Of a stretch of DNA of 64,000 nt, positions 5,491 through 37,757 are shown piece after piece; the first letter of the stretch is position 1; every line of letters starts with the position of its first letter. A program made the translations under genes and the position numbers. Source of the stretch: Malachius bipustulatus (Eukaryota > Arthropoda > Insecta > Coleoptera > Melyridae); NCBI GenBank assembly GCA_910589415.1, contig OU342632.1:52627341-52691340 (forward strand). Direction: 5' to 3'. Below the pieces are notes generated by a model, which saw only the letters and a program-made list of their open reading frames with translations, was not told the DNA's origin and ran no database searches.

Positions 5491-6182
5491 ACGTAAGAGC
5501 GAAAAACTGTAATAGTTGAAAGTTATCTTCGCAATGGTAGTATATTTCATGGAATGTAGATGTTGTTCTCTATAGATCTGTCTTGAGTAATGATCATGTT
5601 GTAAAACCCAAGAATTACTTCTAGTTCCTCATCAAACTCGGTGCTCGGACGGAATGTTTCTATAGGAACCTGTTTACAAGCTCCTTAGAAAAGGTGCTCA
5701 CTTTTATCCTTATCCAGTGATATAGCAGTGAAAGTATACCTACTCCGAGAATTCCTGGCAGATAAAATTTTTGTCAATAGTCTTCCAGAAACTTACAGTG
5801 TTTTCACCAAGATGTTTTGCAGGTTTAGCATGGCTTAGAATATCATGTAGAGCAGTTCCCAGAGTTACAGAACATTGATGGAAAACTTCCGAGGCAACCG
5901 ATTTAGTGAAAGTGATCTGTGGAGATCGACTTATCTGTCGTAGTATAACGATACCTAGATTTCTTACTAAGCATTTACATTGAGGACTCGATATTTTTTG
6001 TGAGACTGTAACGAAGTCAAGTCAAGTAATCGAGAGAAGTTCGTTGAGATCAACAATACACTCAGTTACGGAGCGCTTTTAGTGGAGTGCGAAACCGTGT
6101 ACTAAAATGTGTCCAGGAGGGTGAAAGGCATTTCACTTATCTTTTAAATGAAATAATTGTTGATTTTATTTGAAGTGAGTTC
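5491..6182. other. intergenic, no gene seen
   Basis: No recognisable coding region, RNA gene or repeat. Confidence 0.45.
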
Positions 6183-6750
6183 ACTTGGAGTGAGCCTCGG
6201 AGCGAACATGTCGTGGCATGATCATGTTGCAGGTCTGGCGAAGAGTGCTTCTCAGAAACTTGGAACACTCTTCCGCACGAAGAAATTTTATACACCGCAA
6301 CAGCTTCTCCTCTTATACAAGGCTCAAATCCGACCATCCTTATTGAAGTACCGCTCACATGTTTGGAGCTCAGCTCCTAAACATACGCTGGGACTAATCG
6401 ACTCTATCCAGAAAACACCCATACACTTGATTGAGGACCCAGATTTTACAAAAAATTTAGACACTCTCGAACATCGAAGAAGAGTAGCTACCCTGAGTCT
6501 GTTTGACAGATATTTTTATGGAAAGTGTTCAAAAGACGTGGCCCGCTTGATCCCACCAAGAACAAGACCGGGCAGAAATACACGTCGAGCCTCAGACGCT
6601 CATCCGTATCAGGTTCAGCTCGTTACACCTCGTACCACCCTATTTGCAGCGATTCAAGGCCAACGTGAATCGATATCTCCGCTCATGCACCGCTCCCAGA
6701 GCGTCATAGGGATTTCCCTGCAGTGCATGTGCATTTTCAATAAAAAAAAT
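6183..6750 (+). pseudogene. 5'-truncated LINE fragment, C-terminal part of reverse transcriptase ORF (copy A)
   Basis: The translation carries LGVSLGANMSWHDHVAGLAK, LYKAQIRPSL, HVWSSAP and RTRPGRNTRR. These are typical of the region after the RT palm in jockey/CR1-like insect LINEs. Four related copies occur in this window (also 7366-8278, 28961-29879, 36902-37757). Similarity starts abruptly at about 6183 (5' truncation), and the copy ends in TTCAATAAAAAAAA at 6750. Compared with the 28961 copy it lacks a stretch before the last 100 bases (CCTATTTGCAGCGATT against a longer segment there). It is a dead insertion. Confidence 0.75.
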
Positions 6751-7365
6751 CTATTTTATTAACGTTCTTGAATGTTTTGACAACTGTCCTAATCTAACAG
6801 AATCAAGAGCTGTCAGTTGTAAAAAGTGGATTAAGCTAAGACAAACCTCTTTGTGTCAGGGCCTACTCCAAAATGGATTTGTTTTCGAACACCCCTTACC
6901 TTTGAATGAAACCTGCTGTCTTTTGTATTTTTAATCTGCCATCATGCAGTTTAATATAAAATGCCCCGTTTGGATCAATTTCATTTTTGTGTGATTCATT
7001 TTGAATGACTCACCTAACGGCTCGTGTTGAAATTTTCATTCTCGTGAATAATAGCCATCATTCTGCGCTCGTTGAGGAATACACTATTAGGTATATTTAA
7101 ATAATCATATATATTTACTTTTTTCAAATATTCCTGGCTATAATCCAGAAACTTTCATTTATTAATATAATAAAAAATATTCCATTATATTCAATTATGT
7201 AATCATTATTTTCGTATTTAATTAATTAATTAAAATAAATATAATACTTAAATAATTGAAAAAATGGTTACAAAGGAGGACTTCCTTGAAGAGCTCATCC
7301 TCCTGAAATTATTATATATATTTCCGGTCATCCCAACATATAGTTGGTTGACAAAAGGGGTTTTC
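6751..7365. other. intergenic, no gene seen
   Basis: AT-rich spacer between two LINE fragments that face each other tail to tail. No other feature is supportable. Confidence 0.5.
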
Positions 7366-8278
7366 TTTTTTTTTTTATTGAAAATGCACATGTACTGCAG
7401 GGAAATCCCTATGATGCTCTGGGAGCGGTGCATGAGAGCGGAGATATCGATTCACGTTGGCCTTGAATCTATGTAAGTTGTATACTTCGGGAAACACGCC
7501 CTTTGGAATGTTATTCCAAAGTGATGCGGTTCTTTACATAAAAGAAGTCTGAAATAGGGTGGTACGAGGTGTACGAGATGAACCTGATACGGATGAGCGT
7601 CTGCGGCTCGACGTGTATATCTGCCCGGTCTTGTTCTTGGTGGGATCAAGCGGGCCACGTCTTTTGAACACTTTCCATTAAAATATCTGTAAAACAGACT
7701 CAGGTCAGCTACTCTTTTTCGATGTTCGAGAGTGTCTAAATTTTTTGTCAAATCTGGGTCCCCAATCAAGCGGATGGCTCTTTTCTGAATCGAACCGAGA
7801 AGTTTCAGCGTATGTTTGGGAGCTGAGCTCCAAACATGTGAGCAGTACTCCAAGGATGGTCGGATTTGAGCCTTGTATAAGAGGAGAAGCTGTTGTGGTG
7901 TATAAAATTTCTTCGTGCGGAAGAGTGTTCCAAGTTTTTGAGAAGCACTCTTCGCCAGACCTGCAACATGATCATGCCAAGACATGTTCGCTCCGAGGCT
8001 CACTCCAAGTAAACGAAGAGATGACGCTGGGGTAAGAGAGTGTCCCGCCATCATCATATCTGGCTCCAAAACGTTGGTCTTTTTGGAGAAGATGACTGCT
8101 TGGGTTTTTCCAGCATTGAATTGGACTTGGTTTCTATCGCCCCAAGTTAGAATGTGTTGCAAGTCATTGTTAAGTATGACAACTTCTTACTCCCTGCGAG
8201 TCTGTGCGTCGATGGCAGATGTTCGCGCATCTAACGTATAAGAAGATATGAGGGTACTGTCGTCGGCAAAACTATTTC
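7366..8278 (-). pseudogene. 5'-truncated LINE fragment, reverse transcriptase C-terminal part (copy B)
   Basis: Read on the minus strand from about 8278, the copy starts within the palm motif region (TTTGCCGACGAC...). It continues through WGDRNQVQFNAGKTQAVIFS, LGVSLGANMSWHDH, LYKAQIRPSLEYCSHVW and RTRPGRYTRRAADAH, and ends with a poly(T) at 7366-7380 (poly(A) on its own strand). An open frame of 236 codons covers 8162-7452. It is the longest open frame of this LINE family in the window but lacks the endonuclease, most of the RT and ORF1. Copy A lies 0.6 kb away in the opposite direction, making an inverted pair. Confidence 0.78.
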
Positions 8279-15104: not shown

Positions 15105-15299
15105 TGTAACGTGAATACGTCACCTGTTGTCCTCTTTGCAAAGCTTCTCTCGTTTTAAAGAGAATTGTAAAATTACAGTTCCCTACAACTCCCTATAATA
15201 TAGATCGCATCTTTGAACTGACTACCCACACCATATTCTGGCGCTGGTACCGTCTGGATAATTCACTACTAGATGGCATTGCACGTTTCGTTTCACTAG

Positions 15300-15382
15300 G
15301 ATTTTGAGTTCCTTTCAGGAACCAAATAAGTTGTCGTTTCAGTCCGATCCTGAGTTCTTTTCAGGAACCAAATAAGTTGTCA
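15300..15382 (+). repeat. tandem hairpin repeat inside the LTR
   Basis: Two copies of a TTGAGTTC-type unit follow each other. The first has GTTCCT-TTC-AGGAAC and the second GTTCTT-TTC-AGGAAC; in the second the single change turns a C:G pair into a U:G wobble, so the stem survives. Both are followed by CAAATAAGTTGTC. The same pair is present in the 3' LTR (about 26236-26318). Confidence 0.7.
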
Positions 15383-15542
15383 ACTGTCAATCAGATTTCA
15401 GTATCTGCCCATGACATTTCTCCTTTCACCAACCGAAGGCGAATTTCCTCTCCAGTTCACGGAACTGAATTCACTTCCTTTTTATCTGTCCATCAAGAAA
15501 GTTGATTCTCTTGATCGTTCCCATCGAAGCCTGTTGTTCAGG

Positions 15543-15548
15543 GTAAGT
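15543..15548 (+). promoter_or_regulatory. candidate 5' splice donor in the LTR
   Basis: TTCAGG|GTAAGT matches the metazoan donor consensus well. If transcription starts near 15225, downstream of the TATAATATA at 15194, this donor lies in the transcribed leader. It could join to the acceptor at 23790 to make an ORF3 mRNA. This is an inference with no transcript evidence. Confidence 0.4.
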
Positions 15549-16774
15549 CGCCATTACAGATAATTTTGAAGAGAAGCTCTAATTTGATTATTACTTATTT
15601 TTAGCTTTGGGAATTTTATCTTAACTCTACCTTATACCTTTATCTTTACCTTTCCCTTTGGTAAATACCTTACCTTCTCCGGTATTTACTAATATCCGGA
15701 TTTATTGTCTATCGTGACCGAGGGAGCCATCTTGGACTAGGAAACAAAGGGAGCGTGGCCCATTTCTGTTCTTCAACTATCTAATTGATCCTTGCATCGT
15801 TTTCACTTATCCATGGTGAAATAAATCAACGTTTTGGTGATTTTCAACGACAGCAGAACATTTCCCGGTACTAGTGCTGTTTTGGTTGTCCAATTCTAGG
15901 AGTCTCATCAGGGCGTCGTCTCTGCACCTGCTGCTTTCTCTGGAGACTTCAATGCCTGATTGAGCACCACCCCTAGCAAAGTCCAGGAGTTATTAATATC
16001 CTTTTTACTGTCAAAATAAAGACAGTTTTTACCTCAATCAGCTTCATCCCGGAAACTGTAAGTGTTGTCTTTTATTTTATCTCACCGATCATGACGAGGA
16101 AGGACTAGAAGATCAGTGCTAACTTAGTAAATTAATTAATTACCACTCACGAACTTTATCTTTCCCGATATAAATGATATCGGAAGTATTTTATTCTTTT
16201 GTACACAGGTGTACAAAGTAAAGGATCCTTTATTTTCAAACAAACTGATTGTTTAAACATATTTATATCAGATTTAAAGCTTTTAAAATAAGACAGGATA
16301 ATTATTTGATTTTAATTAAACAGGAAATGTAAACCATAATTTGCTCATTAAACATCTGTCCATTTTAACTTATTCTTTGAAAATCACATTAACATCTTTA
16401 TAACCCTAAATCTACTTTTTATTAGTTCTTCATAGAGTTTAGGTAGCACAATAAAAATAAGAACTCGAGCAAATCGAGTTAATAAGAACTGAAGAACTCT
16501 TTGGCATCCCTAATCTACCTTAGATACCTATATATAGGGTGTACCTTTTTAAATAATTAAAGCAGCAGAATAACTAGCACTCTGATAGTATTTGATTCAG
16601 TTTTCAAGTTATTCAACTTCATTGTCTTCAGAGAAATTTGTCGTGAAAGTTTCTTTTGCAGTATTATCGTTTTGCCGAAACAACATTTTGCCCTTCGCTT
16701 GCACTGCAAGCTCTCGTTACTGCTACTTTCGACACTCCCTGAATCATAATTAATTATTTTGCTCACGCTGCAAT

Positions 16775-16799
16775 TGGCATTTCCCCGGCGGGAATCGAA
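16775..16799 (+). other. probable primer-binding site
   Basis: TGGCATTTCCCCGGCGGGAA lies two bases after the 5' LTR. Its complement ends in CCA and contains TTCGATTCCCG, like the T arm and 3' end of a tRNA. The spacing does not exactly fit any tRNA I can recall, so the primer tRNA is not assigned. Confidence 0.6.
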
Positions 16800-17888
16800 T
16801 TCACCCTCAAACTTTGGATTAGAAACTACCTTAATTAAATAAAAGCACTTGATCTCTTCCTAGTTCCCATTATAAATGGAAAATTGATATTAACGTCATA
16901 AATTACTTTGTTCAGATGTATCGTACAGTTATCTTACTTTTTTAATGCATGATTATTATAGTTGCATGAACTCGCATGTTAGTCTAAGAATGTCTTAGTT
17001 AGTTATTGTTTTTTTTTTACTGCTGGTGAATAATAGTGTCGTGACGCGAAAATACCTTATCTTCTTACCGCTACACTGCCGCTAAAGGGTAACCTTGCAA
17101 AAGGAGCTTTACGGAGTGGTTGTTAATACTGTCGCGAAGGTCTCGAGTAAGCTTTGGGAGAAGTTTGACTCCGTGCAAAGAGGATACTCTTAAGAGAGCT
17201 CTGCGATCAAACTGTCTTTGAAAGTTACAAACATTTCCTTCATTAACATTATCCCATACCTTCGCTCATGAATTTTAAGTTAAATTCGAAATATCTGAAT
17301 TATCGATCAGCTGTTCCAACTGGTGTCCCTCTGTCATTGTCATACGCTGACAGACTGCTAAAGCAACGACAATTCTTTACGTCTAACGTAGAAAGTGAAT
17401 TCTTTACGTGTAAAGATACGTCATGGTGACATGTACTTCTTCCGATCCCTACCTTACCGACTCTAGAGAATATCTGTTCTTACCGACATACCTATGCATA
17501 TTTAAATATTGCCTTATCTTATCTTAGTATCTCTCTAGATTACCTTTATCTCTCTCTCTACTAAGAAATTATATCTTATATCGGTATTTTAGTTTTTTTG
17601 AAATACCGTGACCTATTTTTTCGTTTTAAAACGAAGGGAATTCTTTTGAATTTAAATCTCTCTCTCTCTCACTTGTACTGGTGACGCGACGTCACAGCCA
17701 AGTCAAGTAGGCCAGGTTTATTCTTTCTTTATATAGGCCAGGTTCATTCTTTCCTTATTTAGGCCAGGTACACTAGGTGCTACGTTGCCTACCTGTGCTG
17801 ATAATACTACTGTCTTCTCTCTAGAATAAAATAAAAAATTTTATTCTCATCTATCTATACTATATTATAGTACCTACATTTTTCTAAA
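16800..17888 (+). other. gypsy 5' leader
   Basis: About 1.1 kb of non-coding sequence lies between the primer-binding site and the gag ATG. A triple repeat of AGGCCAGGT with T-rich spacers occurs at about 17710-17770, and pyrimidine runs (TCTCTCTCTC) near 17540-17670. Packaging signals would be expected here, but none is identifiable by eye. Confidence 0.6.
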
Positions 17889-19280
17889 ATGAATCCCGCT
17901 TCAGCCCTGCTCAGCGATGAGCTTACCTATGAGATTGCGTTGAGGAACCAAACACCTCAAAGTACGCAAGACAAGCGAAGGAAACAATTCCGAGCGCTTA
18001 TTAATAGGGAAGATTCTACGGTAGCGTTAGAGTCACCCTACGATTTTGATAAGGATCTTTCTGAAATCAAAGCAACTTTGCTAGATTTAAAGAAAAAGAT
18101 TCCTGAAGCTTCTGGATTGTTCACTGATCTTGCAAGCAGACGTATCCCTTTTCGAGTGGATCACGTTATCGCTCGAATAAACAGATTAAATGTTGAAGCT
18201 GATGCTTCTAAGAAATTTCATAGAGATGAGGCTTATGGAGAAGCACTCCAGTTGGAGGGAGAATGGCTTCTGAAGTTGGATGAGAATGAACCAGTCGTTC
18301 CTCCTGTTTCTGATATCTCGCAATCATCCACCTCAACAGCTAGTACCAAGTACAGTGTCCCTGTACATAAGTGGAACCTAAGGTTTTCAGGCTCTAATAA
18401 AGACAACCTGATTTATTTCCTAGAAAGGGTTCGTGAATTGCAAATCTCGCGGAATGTTTCCGATGAAAATCTTTTTACTTCAGCAGTTGACTTATTTGAG
18501 GATAAGGCCCTCACCTGGTATCGCAGTGTTGCCGGTTCGTTAAAATCTTGGCAGGAAATTAAGTTAAAGTTGAAGGAAACTTTCTTACCCCTATCTTACG
18601 ATGATGATCTTCTCAATGAGATAAATCATCGCACTCAAGGAGAAGAGGAGCTAGTAGCCCTGTATGTAGCCTCCATGAAAGAACTTTTCAAAAGACTTTC
18701 AATTATTCCCTCAGAGGAGGAACAGTTTAAGATCATAAAGCGGAATCTACACCCCTACTTCTTGAACCATTTGGCTCTGGTTGAAGTGTCAACTGCCAAT
18801 GAGATTATCTCTATATGCAAGAAGCTAGAAGACAATAGGGCCATGATTTCTAAATATCGACCCCCTCCCTCAAAGAAGGTGCATAGCCTCCTTAGCTCAG
18901 ACCTGGCATGTCCAGATGAGGCCATTCTAACATCGGCAAAACATTCCTTTGTCACTTCAAGGCCAACTTCTCGTCTTTCAGGAAAACGTGATGCAGGTCA
19001 CGACCAAGTTTCTTTACCTTTCTGTTGGAATTGTTCTAACCAGGGTCATCTCTACCCTAAATGTCGAAAACCCAGAACTATTTTCTGCTACGGTTGTGGA
19101 AAGAAAGATGTTTTTAAACCAAAATGTCCCTCTTGCTCACCGAACTATTCTCGTCCAAAAAACGAGAAGACTGCGCGTCAGGGTGCAACGCAGCAGGAGC
19201 CAAGACACCCAAAAGTATCTCTCCCTTCGAAGAGGCCCGTGGATACAAACCACGCAAGCCCCTCCGAAAACCAAAAGTAA
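17889..19280 (+). CDS. gag: gypsy Gag (capsid/nucleocapsid) polyprotein, 463 aa
   Basis: ATG at 17889 follows AAA (good context). The middle (about residues 155-320) has the retrotransposon-gag capsid fold pattern: KWNLRFSGSN...FLERVREL...F.DKALTWYRSV...W.E.K..L..TFLP...L..EI..RTQGEEE. Near residue 379 a CCHC zinc knuckle is intact (CX2CX4HX4C). A second Cys cluster has CX2CX4VX4C, with Val where His is expected; I recall this variant in related insect Gags, so it may be normal. Gag packages element RNA and forms the particle in the cytoplasm. Its last 157 bases overlap pol in the -1 frame. No stop interrupts it. Confidence 0.93.
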   Translation: MNPASALLSDELTYEIALRNQTPQSTQDKRRKQFRALINREDSTVALESPYDFDKDLSEIKATLLDLKKKIPEASGLFTDLASRRIPFRVDHVIARINRLNVEADASKKFHRDEAYGEALQLEGEWLLKLDENEPVVPPVSDISQSSTSTASTKYSVPVHKWNLRFSGSNKDNLIYFLERVRELQISRNVSDENLFTSAVDLFEDKALTWYRSVAGSLKSWQEIKLKLKETFLPLSYDDDLLNEINHRTQGEEELVALYVASMKELFKRLSIIPSEEEQFKIIKRNLHPYFLNHLALVEVSTANEIISICKKLEDNRAMISKYRPPPSKKVHSLLSSDLACPDEAILTSAKHSFVTSRPTSRLSGKRDAGHDQVSLPFCWNCSNQGHLYPKCRKPRTIFCYGCGKKDVFKPKCPSCSPNYSRPKNEKTARQGATQQEPRHPKVSLPSKRPVDTNHASPSENQK

Positions 19281-22200
19281 ATATCTTTACGACTGCGGAC
19301 CTCCACCATCAAAGGAATATGTGGAAGGTCTGGTTAAATAGAGTCTCTGATTTCTATCGGACTCCAATTGTCATCCCTAAAAATAAACCTAGTAGGTCTA
19401 CGACCCCTGAAATGATACCCCCAATCGTGTCTCAAATTCTACAACCCGATCCAGTAGATAACCGTCCCTATATCTCGGTGGATATGCAAGGAAAGCGTTT
19501 CACTGCTCTTTTTGACACCGGAGCGAATATTTCGGTTTGTGATGTTGAAGTCATAAAAGAAATTTTCGGCAGAACCCATGATTCCTCTGGAAATTCAGAT
19601 CTCTTATGTTCCCTTCGAAATGCAGATGGTTCACCATTACCTGTCACTTCAATCTTGGACCTTACCTTAACTATTGATGACGTCACTAAAGTTGTTCGTT
19701 TTCATGTTGTACCTTCTATCTTGCCCGAGATTATCTTAGGTATGAACGTGGCCATAGCTTTCAATATCTCTATTGATTTTTCCAGAGATTCATTTGAGGT
19801 TAGAGACCGAGTGGATCCTCCCTCTTGTTTTGAAGAACCCCAGGTTAGCACCATAAGTAGAATCCATGATTTTTCTACTCTTCCTCCTGAAGATGTCGTG
19901 AAATTGAACCCGATTATCGAAAAATTTCAAATTTTATCTCCTATCGATGTGCTGCCCGAAACTTCCGTTCTCTGTCATTCTATAGAGACCCCGAATGCCA
20001 AACCTTTTAGACAAAGGCAGTATCCCTTGTCTCCGGCAGTTCAAAAATTTCTAAATGAGGAAATTGATAAGCTTTTGAAACTTAACATCATAGAGAAAAG
20101 TAATTCCCCCTGGTGTTCGCCAGTCCTTTTAGTGAAGAAAAAGGATAATACCTATCGCATGTGCTTTGATGGGAGAAAACTAAACGAAGTTACCACCCAT
20201 GATGCATACCCTCTACCTAGGATTGATTCCATTCTCTGTAAACTGCGAGACGCAAATTTTCTTTCCTCTATAGACTTAAAGCAAGCCTTTTTCCAAGTAC
20301 CTCTAGACGCTGATTCACGTCCAAAGACAGCTTTTATAGTACCCGGAAGGGGTTTATACCAGTTCCGGCGTATGCCTTTTGGTTTGCGGAACAGCGCGCA
20401 AACGCAACAACGTCTCATGGACAGGATCATTGGACCTGACCTCGAGCCGTTCGTTTTTGTTTATCTGGATGACATAATTGTTGTCACTCATACCTTTGAG
20501 AAACATCTTGAAGTTCTAAACGAAGTCTATGAAAGGTTACGTAAGGCCAACCTCACTGTGAATTTTAAGAAGTGTCAATTTTGTCGTGACTCTCTTTCTT
20601 TCCTTGGATTTATTGTAGACAAACACGGTCTCCGTGTTTGTGAAGACAAAGTAAAGTCAATCACAGAAGCTCCCATTCCTCGCAACACCACAGGTGTCAG
20701 GCACATTCTAGGCATTTTGCAATATTATCGTAGATTCGTCAAAGACTTTTCCACTATTAGTGCCCCTATCTCTGCACTTTTGCACAATAGAAAGAAGGGA
20801 CAGTCTATTACTTGGACTTCAGAAGCTGACCAAGCCTTTAAACTTCTTAAAGAACGCCTAACATCGGCCCCTGTCTTGGCTAGCCCTGATTTTTCCAAGC
20901 CTTTCTGCATACAAACTGATGCGAGTGACTATGGAATCGGCGCAGTTCTGTATCAAGAAGACGAAGGTTTCGAACACCCAATAGCCTACGCTAGTCGCAC
21001 TCTCTCTAAGGCAGAGAGGAAATACTATGCTACCGAAAAAGAATGCCTCGGAGTCCTTTTCGGCATAGAGCATTTTCGTCCCTATGTTGAAGGCACCAAA
21101 TTCACGGTCTATACCGACCATGCCTCTCTTCTCTGGCTTAAAAATTTTAAGGAGCCCACAGGTCGTTTAGCTAGGTGGTGTGTACGACTTAGCCAGTTCA
21201 ATTACGAGATGAAACATCGCAAGGGATCTTGTAATGTTCCAGCAGATTTCCTTTCTCGAAATATCTCTCTCTTAACCGCGAATGATCTTACACCAGATGA
21301 GTGGTATAGGAAAATGGTGGAAAACGTCACGGGAAATCCAGATAGTTACCCAAATTTCACGGTTGAAAACGGTCTTCTTCTCAAACATCTGAAGCCGAAC
21401 CATTCCTTATCGTCAAATCTTTCCAATTGGAAAATAGTCATACCTACACCAAATAGGGATGATGTTGTTGCGTCTTTTCATAATCCCCCTACTTCGGCCC
21501 ATTTCGGCGTAAGAAAAACCAAGGCACGAATATCGGAATTCTACTATTGGCCCAAAATGGACCTAACGGTAAAGAAATTCATACGAAATTGTCAGGTTTG
21601 CGGTGCTCACAAATCGACTAATGTCGCTCGTGCTGGTTTAATGGGTGGTTACAAAAGCATAAGCTTTCCTTTCCAATTTATCTCCATAGATTTTATGGGT
21701 CCCTTTCCTAGGTCGAAAGCCAGGAATACACAACTTCTCGTAGTCACAGATTGGTTCTCTAAGTTCGTACTGGTAAAACCCATGCCGAACGCGACCGCAG
21801 CTGCAGTTGTAAAATACCTCGAAAATCAAGTTTTCTTGATCTTTGGTGTCCCTCAAATTGTTCTCTGCGACAATGCTCAGATTTTTAAGAGTACTCAGTT
21901 CATCAAGTTATTGGAAGAGTACCAAGTTAATTTGTGGTATAGTGCTAGGCACTTGTCACAGGTTAACCCTACCGAGAGAACCAATCGAACTTTGCTTACC
22001 GCTATCTCGTCTTATGTGAAAGATAATCACAAAGACTGGGATAAAAATGTCTACAAGGTGGCCCAGGCAATTAATTTGTCTGTGAACGAAGTCACCAAAC
22101 ATTTTCCTGCTTTTCTTGTTTTCGCACGAAACATACCTATTGACGGAACCTTTTATGGTCCTGTCGAAAATAACTACCTTGCCCTACCAGAAGATCTTTC

Positions 22201-22549
22201 TTATGTGCATAGGGAAAATGATATCTCCAGATTACCTCCTATCTTTGAAGACGTCAGAGTCAAATTAAAAAAGGCTTATGACGTAAATAAGAAGTATTAT
22301 GATCTGCGTAAGCGCCCAGATGTTTTCCAGGAAGGAGAGTTAGTATGGAAACATACTTACCCCCTTTCGAATGCTGCAAAGAACTTTGCTGCTAAACTGG
22401 CCCCCAAATTCGTACTTTGCCGAATTTCCAAGGCAATATCTAAATTAGTGTACGAACTACAGGATCAGGAAGGCAACCCGCTAGGTCGCTGGCATGCGAA
22501 GGACTTAAAGGCGTATGGAGGCAAAGATCCGCCACGAATTGATGAATAG
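19124..22549 (+). CDS. pol: gypsy Pol polyprotein: protease, reverse transcriptase, RNase H, integrase
   Basis: The open frame spans 1141 codons. In the protein it is probably entered by frameshifting at 19157-19163 rather than at its own ATG. An aspartic protease is seen as LFDTGA with the Asp at residue 131. RT covers about 300-480 with YRMCFDGRKLN near 344 and YLDD at 447-450. RNase H covers about 590-715, starting TDAS with Asp 599 and including YATEKE and YTDH. Integrase has an HHCC zinc segment from His 786, then the catalytic triad Asp 856, Asp 916 and Glu 951. A GPY/F-like tail ends with WHAKDLKAY; no chromodomain is apparent. All key residues I looked for are present and no stop interrupts the frame. 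It would cleave Gag-Pol, copy the RNA and insert the cDNA. Confidence 0.95.
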   Translation: MSLLLTELFSSKKREDCASGCNAAGAKTPKSISPFEEARGYKPRKPLRKPKVNIFTTADLHHQRNMWKVWLNRVSDFYRTPIVIPKNKPSRSTTPEMIPPIVSQILQPDPVDNRPYISVDMQGKRFTALFDTGANISVCDVEVIKEIFGRTHDSSGNSDLLCSLRNADGSPLPVTSILDLTLTIDDVTKVVRFHVVPSILPEIILGMNVAIAFNISIDFSRDSFEVRDRVDPPSCFEEPQVSTISRIHDFSTLPPEDVVKLNPIIEKFQILSPIDVLPETSVLCHSIETPNAKPFRQRQYPLSPAVQKFLNEEIDKLLKLNIIEKSNSPWCSPVLLVKKKDNTYRMCFDGRKLNEVTTHDAYPLPRIDSILCKLRDANFLSSIDLKQAFFQVPLDADSRPKTAFIVPGRGLYQFRRMPFGLRNSAQTQQRLMDRIIGPDLEPFVFVYLDDIIVVTHTFEKHLEVLNEVYERLRKANLTVNFKKCQFCRDSLSFLGFIVDKHGLRVCEDKVKSITEAPIPRNTTGVRHILGILQYYRRFVKDFSTISAPISALLHNRKKGQSITWTSEADQAFKLLKERLTSAPVLASPDFSKPFCIQTDASDYGIGAVLYQEDEGFEHPIAYASRTLSKAERKYYATEKECLGVLFGIEHFRPYVEGTKFTVYTDHASLLWLKNFKEPTGRLARWCVRLSQFNYEMKHRKGSCNVPADFLSRNISLLTANDLTPDEWYRKMVENVTGNPDSYPNFTVENGLLLKHLKPNHSLSSNLSNWKIVIPTPNRDDVVASFHNPPTSAHFGVRKTKARISEFYYWPKMDLTVKKFIRNCQVCGAHKSTNVARAGLMGGYKSISFPFQFISIDFMGPFPRSKARNTQLLVVTDWFSKFVLVKPMPNATAAAVVKYLENQVFLIFGVPQIVLCDNAQIFKSTQFIKLLEEYQVNLWYSARHLSQVNPTERTNRTLLTAISSYVKDNHKDWDKNVYKVAQAINLSVNEVTKHFPAFLVFARNIPIDGTFYGPVENNYLALPEDLSYVHRENDISRLPPIFEDVRVKLKKAYDVNKKYYDLRKRPDVFQEGELVWKHTYPLSNAAKNFAAKLAPKFVLCRISKAISKLVYELQDQEGNPLGRWHAKDLKAYGGKDPPRIDE
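19157..19163 (+). promoter_or_regulatory. canonical -1 frameshift slippery heptamer A AAA AAC
   Basis: In the gag frame the codons here read CCA AAA AAC, giving A AAA AAC in the correct phase. It lies within the gag-pol overlap, and a slip of one base backwards enters the pol frame. This would fix the Gag to Gag-Pol ratio. I did not verify a downstream pseudoknot. Confidence 0.75.
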
Positions 22550-22789
22550 TTCACTTCCTTCTCTCTCCAGAAATCTTATTTCTACCTAATTTCTATCTTC
22601 TCTACAGCATATACAAACTCCTGTTTGGAATGAGGTTAGACAATACGCGAATTGAGAAGGCTATGTCTTTTGTCGTATCTAGAATGAATGAAGAATGTAT
22701 GAAGAATGTATGCAGAATGAACACCGTACCTTACAAGGCATTCTCAAGGATCTCGAAACTAGTTGTGTGAATGTGTCGACAAAGTATAA

Positions 22790-22978
22790 ATGTTGCTAAT
22801 TTTGGGATCGGTATCTGTTATCCTCAGTCTCTTATCTTGTTCGATCGCTCAAATTTTGAGAACCCATAATTTTTCTGGTTATCTAAACTATTACCTCAGG
22901 AAGAAACTATTCATCTATCTTATCTGGCTAACGTTTGCGAGTCTAATGTTATCTCTTAAGTTTTCTTGTGTTCATTGA
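22790..22978 (+). CDS. possible small membrane protein, 62 aa
   Basis: ATG at 22790 opens a frame whose first 20 residues are a hydrophobic stretch ending in small residues (LLSCSIA), like a signal peptide. A short polar segment with a potential N-glycosylation site (NFS) follows, then a second hydrophobic segment of about 20 residues (FIYLIWLTFASLMLSL). It lies in the gypsy spacer after pol. No family is recognised. A 62-codon frame in AT-rich DNA can easily look hydrophobic by chance, so support is weak. Confidence 0.25.
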   Translation: MLLILGSVSVILSLLSCSIAQILRTHNFSGYLNYYLRKKLFIYLIWLTFASLMLSLKFSCVH

Positions 22979-23166
22979 ACCAAAGGAAAACACTATCTTA
23001 CCGTTGTATCTACCTTATCTTGTCTTTTACCGTTATCTTATCTACTATCTATGTAGGGTGCTTTCCCGACAGTTTCCGCCCTGCTACGTGCTAAAGTGAA
23101 AACTGCTCTGCTTGTCCAATCAGACGACAGCAGATACCTTTTATCTTATCTTCCCTTACCTTATTT

Positions 23167-23468
23167 ATTAGCACCACAGTAAAATGGTGGCTAATGCTTA
23201 TCTTAGATATTCTTTTCAATGAAGGAAAGAAACTATCTTATCTTATCTTATCTATACCTATTAGTACCATAATGGAATGGTGACTAATGTTTATCTTAGA
23301 TATTCTTTTCAAAGAAGAAAAGAAATTATCTTATCTTACCTTATTAGCACCACAGTAAAATGGTGGCTAATGCTTATCTTAGATATTCTTTTCAATGAAA
23401 GAAAAGAAATTATCTTATCTTACCTTAATACCTTTACCTATTAGCTTCATAATGAAATGATAGCTAAT
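23167..23468 (+). repeat. four tandem hairpin repeats with compensatory changes
   Basis: Hairpins lie at 23167-23195, 23260-23288, 23343-23371 and 23440-23468 (spacing 93, 83 and 97 bases), separated by TTATCTTAGATATTCTTTT-type sequence. Stems are ATTAGC-ACCA with TGGTGGCTAAT (copies 1 and 3), ATTAGT-ACCAT with ATGGTGACTAAT (copy 2), and ATTAGC-TTCAT with ATGATAGCTAAT (copy 4). The C:G pair of copies 1 and 3 is T:A in copy 2, so both arms changed together. A single unpaired base in the 3' arm is kept in all four. Confidence 0.8.
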
Positions 23469-23773
23469 CATTATCTTCTCTGCGAATATTTCCTCAACAA
23501 AAAATAGAAATCTAAGTAAATTAGAGTTCTGAATTTGCAAAGGTGGCTCTAGATATTCAGTGCTGCTGTAAAGGAATCTGAACACTGATATCGAATACCC
23601 CTTTATCTCTATGATGAAAATGGCTTTCCCGTTTTCTTATCTCTCCAAGTGATGGAATTATCTTGATGTGTCTTTGATATCCAAGTCTATCCCTTTGTAA
23701 CTGGTAGTAGTTAGAACGACAATTGTCTAGTATCTCTATTGTCTCATGAGAGAATAGAACAATCTTCATTTAG

Positions 23774-23790
23774 TTTTTCTTCTATTACAG
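23774..23790 (+). promoter_or_regulatory. candidate 3' splice acceptor before ORF3
   Basis: TTTTTCTTCTATTACAG is a long pyrimidine tract ending in CAG, only 7 bases before the ORF3 ATG at 23798. The arrangement resembles the spliced subgenomic mRNA used for third ORFs (env) of some gypsy-like elements. Confidence 0.55.
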
Positions 23791-23797
23791 TGGAAAA

Positions 23798-24952
23798 ATG
23801 CCCCCCAGGAGGCAAGGCGTTCATCAATCTGATCCCAGGAAGAAGAGGTTCAATATGAAACTCTGGGCTGAAATGAAAAATATGCGTGATTTCGAAGTAA
23901 ATCCGGGTCTTCAGCCATGGCATGTCCAATTGGACAAAGATGTTTTTCTAGTGGAAAAGGAGCGTTATTTTAAATTCCTAACCGCGCATGCCGTATTAAC
24001 TCATGACCATCCGAGAGTTCCTATTGATGAGGAACAATTTGAAATTTCGAGAGAAATATGTCGAGAGAACGGTATAGACGTTCGTTGGTCGTTGAGCAGC
24101 TTCAATGCCAGACACCTTTCAACTGAGATAATAGCGGCGGAAAATCCTAGTGCAGATAGTGTCTCAGTAGGAAATTTGGCGTTCGTGGGAATTTATAACA
24201 AACCAAAACCATCAGAATTAGGCCGTTACAGGCCAAATAAATTCAAAAGAGGACCAAACCCTTCCTGCCTGCCCTCAGTACGGACAGATCCTGACGGAGT
24301 TCTAATCAGGGAACTCATCACACCATATCTAACATGTCAAGAAAAGGTTCTACTCGCTATAGCTTTCCCTTTTGATGATATTGCCCTTAAGAGGTGTAAC
24401 AAGAAGACTTGTGGGATCGACCTAAGAAGAACATATTACCCAGCCCTCATAGACCGGTACTCGCCATCGGGTAGAGATTTTACCCCTTTGCGTGATTTTA
24501 AGATGGCTTACGCTATAGACCGTTCCTATGCCTCACAGGTGCGTTTTGAGATACCTTGTCATTGTAGTCTGCTGTTGTCCCACATCATATGCAGAGGACT
24601 GCACATTTCTTATCTTCTTTATTGGCATTTTCATCACAATACCAACACGTCCCCAAGTGAAGGAGAACTTTTACTCCCTCTGACAACTCCCCCATTAGAC
24701 CGACTTGCTCCCACTACAGATATCCCTGCATATCAGATAGTTACCTTGGAGAAACCGAAACAACCTGTGCTTAAAGACTCAGAATTCTGGATAATTTTGG
24801 GCAAACGATTGGTCAAATTTTATTACAAATCGGGTTTTATCCTACGAAAATCTGAATCTCCATTTAACTTCGTAAATCGCAGAATCCAGGATGCCTGTGG
24901 AGTATGGTCGCCTAGTATGAAAGTTGCTACTAGAACGTCTTGGGAATGCTGA
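23798..24952 (+). CDS. gypsy ORF3, 384 aa, family not recognised
   Basis: The ATG lies 7 bases after a splice-acceptor-like sequence, and no stop occurs for 384 codons. The N-terminus is basic (MPPRRQG...PRKKRF) and there is no signal peptide. The protein is mixed charged and hydrophobic, rich in Pro and Arg, and has a Cys/His-containing hydrophobic stretch at about residues 252-275 (CHC, then LLLSHIICRGLHISYLLYWHF). I see no fusion-protein features, furin-type site, coiled coil or terminal membrane anchor, so it does not look like a typical Env. It is shorter than usual insect errantivirus Env proteins. It might be a nucleic-acid-binding accessory protein or a captured gene. An open frame of this length next to a young element suggests it is maintained. 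Confidence 0.7.
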   Translation: MPPRRQGVHQSDPRKKRFNMKLWAEMKNMRDFEVNPGLQPWHVQLDKDVFLVEKERYFKFLTAHAVLTHDHPRVPIDEEQFEISREICRENGIDVRWSLSSFNARHLSTEIIAAENPSADSVSVGNLAFVGIYNKPKPSELGRYRPNKFKRGPNPSCLPSVRTDPDGVLIRELITPYLTCQEKVLLAIAFPFDDIALKRCNKKTCGIDLRRTYYPALIDRYSPSGRDFTPLRDFKMAYAIDRSYASQVRFEIPCHCSLLLSHIICRGLHISYLLYWHFHHNTNTSPSEGELLLPLTTPPLDRLAPTTDIPAYQIVTLEKPKQPVLKDSEFWIILGKRLVKFYYKSGFILRKSESPFNFVNRRIQDACGVWSPSMKVATRTSWEC

Positions 24953-25194
24953 TTCTATTTCTGGTCACCATTTAAATCCTTTTCTATCTATTTTCCATGT
25001 ATCTTATCTCTTTTCTAAGCATATGTTTGTGAATACCTTTTTGAGTTGGCTGGTTATCGAACAAAGTTGTTTCCGCGTTTGCCTTAACCTAGATAGTTAA
25101 GTTCAAGCTTTTCCTAGACATTGAATTTGAATGTCCACAACTACCTAAAACAAATGGCCCTGTTTTGGAGGCTGTGTTTGTTCGATGGGAGATT

Positions 25195-25269
25195 CCCATG
25201 GCATTTCTTAGTCCTTCAGTGTTGGCGGTTTTTGAAACCCCAGGCTGAAGTAGTGTTCAAAACCATGGG
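25195..25269 (+). repeat. nested hairpin, copy 1
   Basis: The outer stem is CCCATGG (25195-25201) with CCATGGG (25263-25269). The inner stem is CTTCAG (25214-25219) with CTGAAG (25245-25250), and the apical stem is GGTTT with AAACC. A further small hairpin AACAG...CTGTT follows at about 25304-25318. Confidence 0.75.
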
Positions 25270-25484
25270 CAGTCAAACGTCAAATAGAACGGCACAGATC
25301 TATTAACAGCACTACTGTTATATCGAGAAATCGATTTACCTCAATCTCTGTATATATATGCCTAATTATATCTATCCCGCTACCTTGACTTTTTATGATG
25401 AAGTCAGAATTTCTGGATTTGTTTAGTTGTCCATTCTATCGGGTAGCAGCCCTGTTTCCGAGAGTTTTGGTTTGTGTGAAAACT

Positions 25485-25561
25485 CCCATAGCAATTTTCT
25501 TAGTCCTTCAGTGTTGGCGGTTTTTGAAACCCCAGGCTGAAGTAGTGTTCAAAACTATGGG
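25485..25561 (+). repeat. nested hairpin, copy 2, with compensatory outer-stem change
   Basis: The outer stem is CCCATAG (25485-25491) with CTATGGG (25555-25561). Against copy 1 a G became A on one side and the partner C became T on the other, so pairing is kept. The inner and apical stems are identical to copy 1. The following AACAG...CTGTT hairpin is also kept, while its loop differs. Confidence 0.75.
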
Positions 25562-26027
25562 TGGTTGAACATCAAACAAAACAGTGCAGCTCTATTAACA
25601 GCGAGCCTGTTATACCGAAATGTTATAACTTAATTTTAATTCTTGTATATACAATATCTAATTATAAGTGTTTATAATAATAATCAACTTAGTAGCATGT
25701 TATCTAGAAAGAATGCATGTACATTTTCTTTTATCTACTTAGCATTAAGGTTTTGTAATTATAAATTTAATCTGCATGAGCGAGTTAAATATTTCTTTTT
25801 GTATTGTATAGCTAGTTAAAGTGACTAACTGTGCGATATTATCTGAACAAATAGTAAACATGGTAGAAAACTTTTACAAAGTTTGTTTTTGTAAAACACT
25901 ATTCTCTCTCTTTTTCGATTTGTGTTGTCCTTGTTGGTCATCCACAATCATACCTTCATGTATACCCTTCTACGGGTATAGAAAGAACTAGAATTTTCTT
26001 CTAGTTTTTGAATTTTCTCTTGCATCG

Positions 26028-26040
26028 GTAAGGGGAGGTG
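26028..26040 (+). other. probable polypurine tract
   Basis: TAAGGGGAGGTG lies directly before the 3' LTR start at 26041. A purine-rich run at this place primes plus-strand synthesis in LTR elements. Confidence 0.65.
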
Positions 26041-27710
26041 TGTAACGTGAATACGTCACCTGTTGTCCTCTTTGCAAAGCTTCTCTCGTTTTAAAGAGAA
26101 TTGTAAAATTACAGTTCCCTACAACTCCCTATAATATAGATCGCATCTTTGAACTGACTACCCACACCATATTCTGGCGCTGGTACCGTCTGGATAATTC
26201 ACTACTAGATGGCATTGCACGTTTCGTTTCACTAGGATTTTGAGTTCCTTTCAGGAACCAAATAAGTTGTCGTTTCAGTCCGATCCTGAGTTCTTTTCAG
26301 GAACCAAATAAGTTGTCAACTGTCAATCAGATTTCAGTATCTGCCCATGACATTTCTCCTTTCACCAACCGAAGGCGAATTTCCTCTCCAGTTCACGGAA
26401 CTGAATTCACTTCCTTTTTATCTGTCCATCAAGAAAGTTGATTCTCTTGATCGTTCCCATCGAAGCCTGTTGTTCAGGGTAAGTCGCCATTACAGATAAT
26501 TTTGAAGAGAAGCTCTAATTTGATTATTACTTATTTTTAGCTTTGGGAATTTTATCTTAACTCTACCTTATACCTTTATCTTTACCTTTCCCTTTGGTAA
26601 ATACCTTACCTTCTCCGGTATTTACTAATATCCGGATTTATTGTCTATCGTGACCGAGGGAGCCATCTTGGACTAGGAAACAAAGGGAGCGTGGCCCATT
26701 TCTGTTCTTCAACTATCTAATTGATCCTTGCATCGTTTTCACTTATCCATGGTGAAATAAATCAACGTTTTGGTAAATTTTCAACGACAGCAGAACATTT
26801 CCCGGTACTAGTGCTGTTTTGGTTGTCCAATTCTAGGAGTCTCATCAGGGCGTCGTCTCTGCACCTGCTGCTTTCTCTGGAGACTTCAATGCCTGATTGA
26901 GCACCACCCCTAGCAAAGTCCAGGAGTTATTAATATCCTTTTTACTGTCAAAATAAAGACAGTTTTTACCTCAATCAGCTTCATCCCGGAAACTGTAAGT
27001 GTTGTCTTTTATTTTATCTCACCGATCATGACGAGGAAGGACTAGAAGATCAGTGCTAACTTAGTAAATTAATTAATTACCACTCACGAACTTTATCTTT
27101 CCCGATATAAATGATATCAGAAGTATTTTATTCTTTTGTACACAGGTGTACAAAGTAAAGGATCCTTTATTTTCAAACAAACTGATTGTTTAAACATATT
27201 TATATCAGATTTAAAGCTTTTAAAATAAGACAGGATAATTATTTGATTTTAATTAAACAGGAAATGTAAACCATAATTTGCTCATTAAACATCTGTCCAT
27301 TTTAACTTATTCTTTGAAAATCACATTAACATCTTTATAACCCTAAATCTACTTTTTATTAGTTCTTCATAGAGTTTAGGTAGCACAATAAAAATAAGAA
27401 CTCGAGCAAATCGAGTTAATAAGAACTGAAGAACTCTTTGGCATCCCTAATCTACCTTAGATACCTATATATAGGGTGTACCTTTTTAAATAATTAAAGC
27501 AGCAGAATAACTAGCACTCTGATAGTATTTGATTCAGTTTTCAAGTTATTCAACTTCATTGTCTTCAGAGAAATTTGTCGTGAAAGTTTCTTTTGCAGTA
27601 TTATCGTTTTGCCGAAACAACATTTTGCCCTTCGCTTGCACTGCAAGCTCTCGTTACTGCTACTTTCGACACTCCCTGAATCATAATTAATTATTTTTGC
27701 TCACGCTGCA
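26041..27710 (+). repeat. 3' LTR of gypsy element
   Basis: The LTR is 1670 bp and near-identical to 15105-16772. Differences noticed are GGTAAATTTTC against GGTGATTTTC, GATATCAGAAG against GATATCGGAAG, and one extra T in TTATTTTTGCTC. It is followed by the CTCC duplication. Confidence 0.93.
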
Positions 27711-28960: not shown

Positions 28961-29879
28961 TGAAACAACAAAAAATCCAATATATAGTTTTGCAGATGAC
29001 AGTACACTCATATCTTCTTATACCTTAGATGCGCGAACATCTGCCATCGAGCACAGACTCGCAGGGAGCAAGAAGTTGCCATACTTAACAACGACTTACA
29101 AGACATTCTAGATTGGGGCGATAGAAACCAAGTTCAATTTAATGCTGGAAAAACCCATGCAGTTTTTGCCAGCAACGTTTTGGAGCCAGATATGGTGATG
29201 GCGGGACACTCTCTTACTCCATCGGTATCTCTTCGTTTACTTGGAGTGAGCCTCGGAGCCAACATGTCTTGGCATGATCATGTTGCAGGTCTGGCGAAGA
29301 GTGCTTCTCAAAAACTTGGAACACTCTTCCGCACGAAGAAATTTTATACACCACAACAGCTTCTCCTCTTATACAAGACTCAAATCCGACCATCTTTGGA
29401 GTACTGCTCACATGTTTGGAGCTCAGCTCCTAAACATACGCTGAAACTACTCGACTCTATCCAGAAAAGAGCCATACACTTGATTGGGGAACCAGATTTG
29501 ACAAAAAATTTAGACACACTCGAACATCGAATAAGAGTAGCTGACCTGAGTCTGCTTTACAGATATTTTTATGGAAAGTGTTCAAAAGACGTGGCCCGCT
29601 TGATCCAACCTAGAACAAGACCGGGCAGAAATACACGTCGAGCCGCAGACGCTCATCCGTATCAGGTTCAGCTCGTTACACCTCGTACCACCCTATTTCA
29701 GACTTCTTTTATGTATAGAACCGCATCACTTTGGAATAGCATTCCAAACGGCGTGTTTACCGAAGTAACCTACAGCGATTCAAGGCTAACGTGAATCGAC
29801 ATCTCCGCTCATGCACCGCTCCCAGAGCGTCATAGTGATTTCCCTGCAGTGCATGTGCATTCTCAATAAAAAAAAAAAA
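28961..29879 (+). pseudogene. 5'-truncated LINE fragment, reverse transcriptase C-terminal part (copy C)
   Basis: Starts at GAAACAACAAAAAATCC, within the palm region (SFADDSTLISSYTL). It continues through LGVSLGANMSWHDHVAGLAK, IRPSLEYCSHVW and RTRPGRNTRRAADAH to FQTSFMYRTASLWNSIPNGV. It ends in TTCTCAATAAAAAAAAAAAA. Open over 29180-29794 (204 codons) but frameshifted before that. It is the fullest 3' end of this LINE family in the window. Confidence 0.78.
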
Positions 29880-36901: not shown

Positions 36902-37757
36902 TATTACGTATATTTCTAGAGCTTTCGACCGTGTCTGGCATGATGGACTGTTGGCAAAACTGCAGGCTTATGGCATGCCCGAGAAATTCTGCTTGTAGTT
37001 TTCGAGTTATCGCGGAGATCGTTCATTACACGTGGCAGTCGATGGAGTTCTTTCTGAGACCTTTTCCATCAATGCCGGTATGCCTCAGGGATCCATTTTA
37101 TCTCCGCCTCTCTTTCTAATATTTATCGACGACTTGCTTGAAACAACAAAAAATCCAATATACAGTTTTGCCGATGACAGTACACTCATATCTTCTTATA
37201 CCTTAGATGCGCAAAGTTGCCATACTTAGCAATCACTTACAAGACATTCTAGCTTGGGGCGATAGAAACCAAGTTCAATTTAATGCTGGAAAAAACCATG
37301 CAGTCATCTTCTCCAAAAAGGTCAATGTTTTGGGGCCAGATATGGTGATGGCGGGACACTCTCTTACTCCAGCGTCATCTCTTCGTTTACTTGGAGTGAG
37401 CCTCGGAGCGAACATGTCTTGGCATCATCATGTTGCAGGACTGGCGAAAAGTGCTTCTCAAAAACTTGGAACACTCTTCCGCACGAAGAAATTTTTTTTA
37501 CACCACAACAGCTTCTCCTCTTATACAAGTCTCAAATCCGACCATCCTTGGAGTAGTGCTCACATGTTTGGAGCTCAGCTCCTAAACATACGCTGAGACT
37601 ACTCGACTCTATCCAGAAAAGAGCATACACTTGATTGGGGACTCAGATTTGACAAAAAATTTAGACACCTCGAACATCGAAGAGTAGCTGACCTGAGTCT
37701 GTTTTACAGATTTTTTATGGAAAGTGTTCAAAAGACGTGCCCCGCTTGATCCCACAT
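36902..37757 (+). pseudogene. LINE fragment, reverse transcriptase palm and C-terminal part (copy D)
   Basis: It begins within the RT at ISRAFDRVWHDGLLAKLQAYGM. INAGMPQGSILSPPLFLIFIDDLL follows, then the catalytic FADD at 37167-37178, WGDRNQVQFNAG and LGVSLGANMSW. It carries several stops and frameshifts. It reaches further 5' than the other copies but breaks off at about 37757 before the usual 3' end, so it is truncated on both sides. FADD and the order of motifs fit jockey/CR1-like LINEs. Confidence 0.78.

Follow-up and report, generated by a model that had tools for sequence, protein, structure and literature searches.

Tandem hairpins with conserved base pairing between pol and ORF3 of a gypsy-like retroelement family in Malachius bipustulatus

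Results

A young gypsy-like element with a hairpin array between pol and ORF3

The 64,000-nucleotide stretch of Malachius bipustulatus DNA analyzed here, in the following called the window, contains a gypsy-like element at positions 15105-27710. Its two LTRs of about 1.67 kb are 99.76% identical over 1670 columns, and the element is young. The characteristics of the Ty3/gypsy group are present, i.e., LTRs, gag and a pol gene with the order protease, reverse transcriptase, RNase H, integrase (Table 1), with the protease matches in pol lying below or near the Pfam cut-offs. The gag and pol ORFs reside in different frames, and the gag stop falls inside pol. A noncoding gap of 1248 bases separates the pol stop (22549) from the ATG of a third ORF, termed ORF3 (23798), and it is this gap that harbors the structures described below. 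Several other sequence features were recorded. A 123-nt direct repeat is located 3' of ORF3 (25204-25326 and 25496-25618, 86% identical), and the 5' leader that precedes gag has tandem TAGGCCAGGT repeats (17708-17780), which may constitute another leader signal. Outside the element, four ORFs (6157-6762, 7452-8162, 29180-29794 and 37207-37596) have the stretch LGVSLGANMSW... in common and are presumably pieces of one non-LTR element family.

Table 1 Features of the gypsy-like element, in order of position in the window
Feature	Position	Strand	Basis
5' LTR	15105..16772	+	matches 26041-27710
gag ORF, 463 aa	17889..19280	+	Retrotrans_gag E 6.7e-9
pol ORF, 1141 aa: protease, RT, RNase H, integrase	19124..22549	+	domain matches
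pyrimidine tract, 75% C+T, directly 3' of pol stop	22550..22609	+	composition
UUAUC(U) linker motifs	22818..23663	+	motif count
module A, 85 nt	23055..23139	+	copies, folding, covariance
hairpin B copy 1	23167..23195	+	sequence
spacer hairpin C copy 1, UUCUUUUC/GGAAAGAA stem	23203..23240	+	fold
hairpin B copy 2	23260..23288	+	sequence
spacer hairpin C copy 2	23296..23333	+	fold
hairpin B copy 3, identical to copy 1	23343..23371	+	sequence
spacer hairpin C copy 3	23379..23416	+	fold
hairpin B copy 4, shifted register	23440..23468	+	sequence
3'-splice-site-like TTTTTCTTCTATTACAG, just before ORF3 ATG	23774..23790	+	acceptor score
ORF3, 384 aa	23798..24952	+	ORF listing
pyrimidine tract, 76.7% C+T, directly 3' of ORF3 stop	24953..25012	+	composition
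3' LTR	26041..27710	+	matches 15105-16772

Further copies were sought in the source assembly (544 Mb, 52 contigs), all of them therefore from one genome, where the hairpin region gave at least 49 matches (40 of 339 candidates scored). Two sets were used. The array set consists of the window and 39 further copies picked by similarity to the hairpin region; the presence of hairpins in this set is thus no independent evidence. The ORF3 set comprises the best 30 ORF3 matches, the window included, and shares loci with the array set. Twenty copies, hand-picked from the 39 with exclusion of the ORF3-bearing copies L009, L012, L016 and L017, were followed downstream. Searches of viral contigs with pol, ORF3, the hairpin pattern, the pol alignment and the module pattern, and of prokaryotic genome contigs with the module pattern, did not yield relatives. 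Among proteins, pol has relatives of up to 67% identity.

Hairpin B is kept base-paired across genomic copies

An earlier note on this DNA had described four tandem hairpins between pol and ORF3 at 23167-23468 with periods of 93, 83 and 97 bases. These hairpins, here designated B, are seen in the sequence, as are the stems ATTAGC/GCTAAT in copies 1, 3 and 4 and ATTAGT/ACTAAT in copy 2. Since the 29-mers of copies 1 and 3 do not differ, the number of variants in the window alone is three and not four. For copy 4, the change of the inner stem to TCAT/ATGA holds, but the mismatch ascribed to it vanishes in a shifted register in which this inner stem pairs fully and the outer stem comprises 7 bp (ATTAGCT/AGCTAAT). 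Likewise, all copies retain a single bulged base in the 3' arm, but it is not the identical base as had been claimed, since the bulge of copy 4 sits one position further in. Nor are these four hairpins the whole structure, only part of which falls within 23167-23468: it also includes additional hairpins in the spacers and an upstream module, designated A.

All 40 copies of the array set contain at least four hairpins B (32 with four, 7 with five and 1 with seven), and the resulting 170 units fall into 23 distinct sequences. In the ORF3 set, hairpins B number two to five in 30 of 30 copies, seven of which have only two. When arrays are counted as for the plant element Retand, i.e., as at least three repeats between pol and the 3' LTR, four to seven repeats are present in 40 of 40 copies of the array set and at least three in 23 of the 30 ORF3 copies. 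The number of units is therefore variable, from two to seven for hairpin B and, as detailed below, from one to five for module A, while B, C and module A are kept base-paired across the sampled copies.

A minimum spanning tree connects the 23 hairpin B variants by 30 substitutions. None of 2000 random base-matched placements of substitutions was as stable as the observed one (-176.8 vs. a mean of -148.6 kcal/mol). All nine variants with at least four copies keep a stem of 10-11 bp and a single 3' bulge, and weakened variants (-6.0 to -7.7 kcal/mol) occur only one to three times each in the array set; one variant of -7.7 kcal/mol, the 11-bp stem of which is intact, has 12 copies in the ORF3 set. 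The pair formed by positions 6 and 24 is C-G, U-A or U-G, with U-G in 32 units, and that formed by positions 8 and 21 is C-G or U-A. Where C6 faces A24 (17 units), the bulge moves and C6 pairs with G23. Counted pair by pair, 95.7% of the cells are paired, and double-changed cells amount to 11 vs. 3.8 after shuffling, a value as high as that observed being reached in none of 500 shuffles. Double changes affect two pairs, which is not unusual by the same procedure (229 of 500 shuffles), and unrepaired A-C mismatches are also present, in one to three units or rows each. By and large, the comparison with other genomic copies that the earlier note had suggested is thus in favor of structure, with unpaired changes in some low-copy variants. 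The placement test was also run on 17 overlapping control windows taken from noncoding sequence upstream in 21 copies; none reached p ≤ 0.05, and these windows carry fewer substitutions than B or C.

For the 360-nt hairpin region, the folding energy has a z of -3.2, and none of 100 shuffles matches its stability; a 451-nt stretch including module A gives z = -4.7 on the plus and -3.9 on the minus strand (60 shuffles each). Since the tail of pol also reaches z = -2.5, the main evidence is covariation and not folding energy.

Spacer hairpin C and UUAUCU linkers

Each spacer between B hairpins carries a second conserved hairpin, C, for which the placement test gave 0 of 1000 (129 of 130 spacers, 25 variants, 51 substitutions). 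The structured units are linked by a strongly strand-biased motif. The gap between pol and ORF3 contains 24 TTATC and no GATAA (shuffled means 3.3 and 2.2; 0 of 1000 shuffles reach 24), although part of the TTATC excess stems from the tandem nature of the units. TTATCT occurs 23 times on the sense strand of the 1.25-kb gap and not at all on the other strand, and TCTT is found 33 times vs. a shuffled mean of 18.0.

Module A upstream of the array

Module A is composed of a proposed pseudoknot (GGGUG/CGCCC), a stem (CAGUUUC/GAAAACUG) and a 3' hairpin (CUGCUUGUC/GACGACAGCAG). The fetched stretches of 40 elements hold 100 copies of it, one to five per element, and tandem copies are spaced by 112-117 nt, mostly by 113-114 nt. 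In the ORF3 set, one to four copies are located within 1.5 kb upstream, and A and B occur together in 30 of 30 copies. In the 3' hairpin, two pairs are changed on both sides (C-G/U-A), and U-G intermediates at the covarying pair 58-78 are present in 8 distinct rows of 35. Over 42 rows, 29 double-changed cells were counted vs. 11.8 after shuffling (0 of 500), and four pairs are changed on both sides, a number reached by 11 of 500 shuffles; the underlying alignment places the 3' hairpin of A', a diverged form of the module introduced below, one column off in two rows, so that some pairs score as broken. In the placement test the central stem (H2) was marginal (24 of 1000; 34 of 35 rows), and the 3' hairpin (H3) failed when taken alone (137 of 1000; 33 of 35 rows).

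A GGG/CCC hairpin predicted by RNAalifold at the 5' end of module A was discarded, as it is broken in both A' copies. In its place we propose an H-type pseudoknot, in which GGGUG would pair with CGCCC in the loop of the central stem. This pairing is retained in both A' copies, and 98.1% of its cells are paired (42 rows), with one supporting change (U-G to U-A) and four broken cells.

Module A and hairpin B occur in related families

The copies L098 and L099 represent two families of the same genome with ORF3 proteins of 34-36% identity, and both carry the module A type. L098 has three near-identical copies of module A and the diverged A', and L099 has A' only; the covariance model finds A' at E values of 5e-8 and 5e-7. 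In the central stem of A', C-G is changed to G-C and G-C to U-A, on both sides in each case, and the stem is fully paired. Module A of the window is identical to that of L098 at 79 of 81 positions (97.5%), compared with 371 of 494 for the upstream flank, and recombination between the families could also explain this near-identity. Hairpin B is present in L098, L099 and in L102, the ORF3 of which is 84% identical, and is weaker in the latter (-4.8 kcal/mol). In all three, additional hairpins are predicted in the stretch from module A to B, and the bias of TTATC over GATAA is found here as well (21 to 0 in L102, 27 to 4 in L098 and 25 to 4 in L099). For three of five distant ORF3 relatives, L100, L101 and L103, no similar array was found in the 1.3-2.2 kb fetched, and the strand bias of TTATC is absent from these stretches.

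Two other features were observed in the related families. Just upstream of ORF3, L098 and L099 contain a tandem array of about 22 nt of the TCCAGGCGATTAT type (reverse strand, ~1790-2040 and ~1920-2050, respectively). In L102 a MITE-like insertion with inverted ends (TCCGTATTCATC ... GATGAATACGGA) is located at ~560-724, in the spacer before hairpin B.

The array is retained in copies without ORF3

Within its own genome, the ORF3 family (L104) has 31 near full-length copies of 97-100% identity and about 40 long matches of 33-36%. ORF3 gave no match in Pfam, NCBIfam or PDB at E ≤ 1, and searches of 5.8 billion proteins, with 2001 and 3719 candidates, yielded no homologs outside the genome at E ≤ 0.001, by a procedure that reaches only relatives sharing exact 5-residue words. 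The AlphaFold2 model, built from two sequences, has a pLDDT of 28.7, too low for a comparison of folds. The N-terminus is basic (MPPRRQGVHQSDPRKKRF in the window, MESRRQRRSQ in L098 and MESRRRRRSQ in L099), as might be expected of a protein that binds RNA or is nuclear, and indicates no more than this.

An ORF3 match within 3 kb is lacking for 33 of the 40 array-bearing copies. Among the 20 copies followed downstream, 18 proved ORF3-negative in tblastn, which overstates the proportion because four ORF3-bearing copies had been left out; the figure for the whole set is the 33 of 40. In nine ORF3-less copies that were inspected, the sequence resumes at 25353 and runs into the 3' LTR. One identical hairpin set is common to 13 copies, all of them ORF3-less, which argues for recent amplification. 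The ORF3 protein was possibly supplied in trans to these copies, for which the 31 copies with a near full-length ORF3 at other loci are potential sources. The earlier note had considered that the hairpins might serve translation of the downstream ORF. With 33 of 40 copies devoid of an ORF3 match, this has become unlikely, and the same applies to an ORF3 leader or IRES. As ORF3-less copies keep the array, it is there a 3' noncoding element of gag-pol/genomic RNA.

Pyrimidine tracts at stop codons and splice-site-like motifs

Directly behind the pol stop, pyrimidines account for 75% of the 60 nt, both in the window and in each of the 20 fetched copies; the value is 80% in L098, for which the count starts at the stop codon itself, and 82% in L099. 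At least 75% pyrimidine is reached by 15 of 9208 overlapping internal 60-nt windows, and at least 76.7%, the value behind ORF3, by six. The fraction behind ORF3 is 0.767-0.783 in 29 of 30 ORF3 copies, the thirtieth, L077, having been left out of this count since the frame picked ended after 11 codons. No pyrimidine tract follows the gag stop (46.7%). Note that the tracts were noticed after the composition profile had been viewed, and the finding is thus post hoc.

Splice-site-like motifs were scored with approximate weights. The tract behind pol contains two CAGs resembling 3' splice sites, with first exon bases at 22571 and 22608. The motif TTTTTCTTCTATTACAG before the ORF3 ATG has the fourth best acceptor score in 22000-25200, and the best-scoring donor in 15105-23800 is AGG|GTAAGT at 15543 in the 5' LTR, a candidate for the production of spliced ORF3 RNA. 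The pyrimidine tracts at the stop codons could simply be splice-acceptor tracts.

Strand of the acting form

The reverse complement of module A is more stable in 35 of 35 rows (mean -29.7 vs. -22.6 kcal/mol), and for the 3' hairpin alone the reverse strand is more stable in 29 of 35. Hairpin B shows no significant strand preference (16 of 23 variants better on the minus strand, p 0.11). Folding energy is therefore against the sense strand or neutral, and what speaks for the sense strand is the bias of UUAUCU together with the U-G intermediates.

Discussion

Selection on structure and a possible role of the array

The earlier note had inferred selection on an RNA (or cruciform) structure from the window. 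Selection on an RNA (or single-strand) structure is borne out by many copies and by related families: module A and B are found in the latter, too, and we consider selection on structure well supported. The identity of the acting strand is less so. For the function, we regard it as about an even bet (probability around 0.5) that the array is a modular, multi-site, cis-acting RNA scaffold for stability and export of full-length RNA; both this function and RNA as the acting form are what we infer. Such a scaffold would belong to the noncoding 3' portion of full-length RNA, both gag-pol and genomic, where proteins of the host or of the element may bind simultaneously to many of the repeated hairpins and pyrimidine linkers. 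The resulting RNP would protect an intron-containing RNA whose 3' UTR is long against splicing and decay, and would carry this RNA to the cytoplasm in a way comparable to retroviral RSE, CTE or RRE elements. A variable number of units combined with conserved pairing fits additive binding, i.e., avidity. The role in stability, understood as protection from nonsense-mediated decay (NMD), is included because pyrimidine tracts follow the pol and ORF3 stops. Stability and export together are the most likely of the functions considered, followed by packaging.

A packaging or dimerization signal, to which the Gag nucleocapsid would bind via the hairpins and module A so that any array-bearing RNA is encapsidated, strikes us as possible but rather improbable. 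It would account for the retention of the array in ORF3-less copies and for the recent multiplication of 13 of these with an identical hairpin set, and Gag possesses a run that we take to be a zinc knuckle-like motif of the CCHC type. In Ty1, a pseudoknot reportedly plays a role of the packaging/dimerization type. Known retroviral packaging signals are mostly found near the 5' end, however, unlike the 3' position of the array, and packaging leaves the UUAUCU linkers and the pyrimidine tracts at the stops unexplained.

It is also conceivable, though we think it doubtful, that the array, two types of hairpin and a pseudoknot module strung together by UUAUCU linkers, is a multivalent RNA response element. 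The ORF3 protein, which has a basic N-terminus and for which no relatives were found, would recognize it so that genomic RNA is exported or protected, and ORF3-less copies would parasitize ORF3 made elsewhere in the genome. If true, such a system would resemble Rev/RRE or CERV, with an RNA side that is modular and tunable in copy number.

Splicing control, with the array lying upstream of a 3' splice site before ORF3 and tuning the ratio of spliced to unspliced RNA, appears less probable again. The acceptor-like positions 22571, 22608 and 23791, the donor-like position 15543 and the UCUU-rich linkers are what such a control would use, but the array is retained where ORF3 is gone. Moreover, the motif before ORF3 is present only in the two ORF3-bearing copies of the 20 followed, the second CAG behind pol is lost in four of these 20 (L052, L058, L064 and L065), and L098 lacks a CAG directly behind pol.

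The array may have no function at all and consist of tandem duplicates whose matching changes arise when, through template switching or gene conversion in the course of reverse transcription, one arm serves as the template for its partner. The varying copy number would be expected in this case, and recombination could cause the near-identity of module A between distant families. We nevertheless deem this improbable, since the U-G intermediates are stepwise, substitutions avoid stem-breaking sites, clearly weakened variants stay at one to three copies in the array set and the A' stem contains two double changes; template switching, in addition, would tend to perfect the arms and to erase the bulge. 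The least probable explanation is a DNA-level element, i.e., an enhancer, insulator or recombination hot spot: TTATCT, with 23 occurrences in 1.25 kb, complements AGATAA, which we take to resemble GATA sites, just as the ATTA/TAAT arms presumably resemble homeodomain-like sites, tandem arrays of variable copy number are usual for protein-binding DNA and the lack of a strand preference in folding energy is compatible with it, but the motif has one orientation only, and DNA sites would not be expected to covary through U-G intermediates or to show a 3' bulge that migrates.

To our knowledge, export and survival of unspliced RNA are understood for few gypsy-type elements. The family described here is a many-copy natural experiment that offers covariation, two types of module and a contrast between presence and absence of ORF3, which makes questions of RNA export and stability directly testable.

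Comparison with known systems

One of the closest parallels for a scaffold protecting and exporting full-length RNA is provided by Rous sarcoma virus (RSV), where an RNA stability element (RSE) located directly behind the gag stop fulfils part of this role (PMC5580461; PMC4764554). The RSE comprises 400 nt, with a minimal element of 155 nt, and is bound by the polypyrimidine-tract protein; PTBP1 bound near stop codons blocks UPF1 and thereby shields the stops from NMD (PMC4764554; PMC5580461). As in RSV, pyrimidine-rich RNA lies close behind stop codons here, those of pol and ORF3, in an unspliced RNA with a long 3' UTR. In contrast to the RSE behind gag, the array resides behind pol, and the pyrimidine fraction at the gag stop is 0.467. 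A tandem string of hairpins is not mentioned for the RSE in the sections of the two accounts on which we draw (PMC5580461; PMC4764554).

Among the families of Rfam, no gathering-level match of the window was obtained, and the hits of copy L011 were at chance level (E 4.1 and 4.7). The CTE of Mason-Pfizer monkey virus and the HIV RRE are single compact folds, unlike the two to seven short hairpins and one to five modules of the array. Both serve as structured RNAs for the export of unspliced RNA (PMC10309623, as far as the consulted part of that article goes).

Cer1 of Caenorhabditis elegans is a Ty3/gypsy element in which CERV, produced from a spliced mRNA, is needed for export of the genomic RNA, and the authors of that study raise the question of a comparable role for other 3' ORFs (PMC10309623, same part). 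ORF3 is similar in position, as an ORF between pol and the 3' LTR for which relatives outside were not found; this likeness does not imply relatedness. Unlike Cer1, for which the portion of the article used here mentions no cis-acting RNA array (PMC10309623), the element described here has one, and an ORF3 match is lacking for 33 of the 40 copies sampled.

The plant gypsy element Retand carries tandem arrays in the same place, between pol and the 3' LTR, and their origin and function are called unknown (PMC11963269, in the sections consulted). These sections do not mention hairpins or secondary structure (PMC11963269), whereas the array in M. bipustulatus has hairpin structure. Retand also has antisense TRP28 ORFs, whereas no antisense ORF of at least 90 aa is present in 22550-26040. 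Covarying RNA structure in tandem arrays between pol and the 3' LTR was not found reported in the open-licence literature. Structured cis-acting RNA is known in retroelements; the form described here is unmatched by Rfam and, if the array is the response element for ORF3 considered above, would as far as known provide the first covariation-supported function for tandem arrays located between pol and the 3' LTR.
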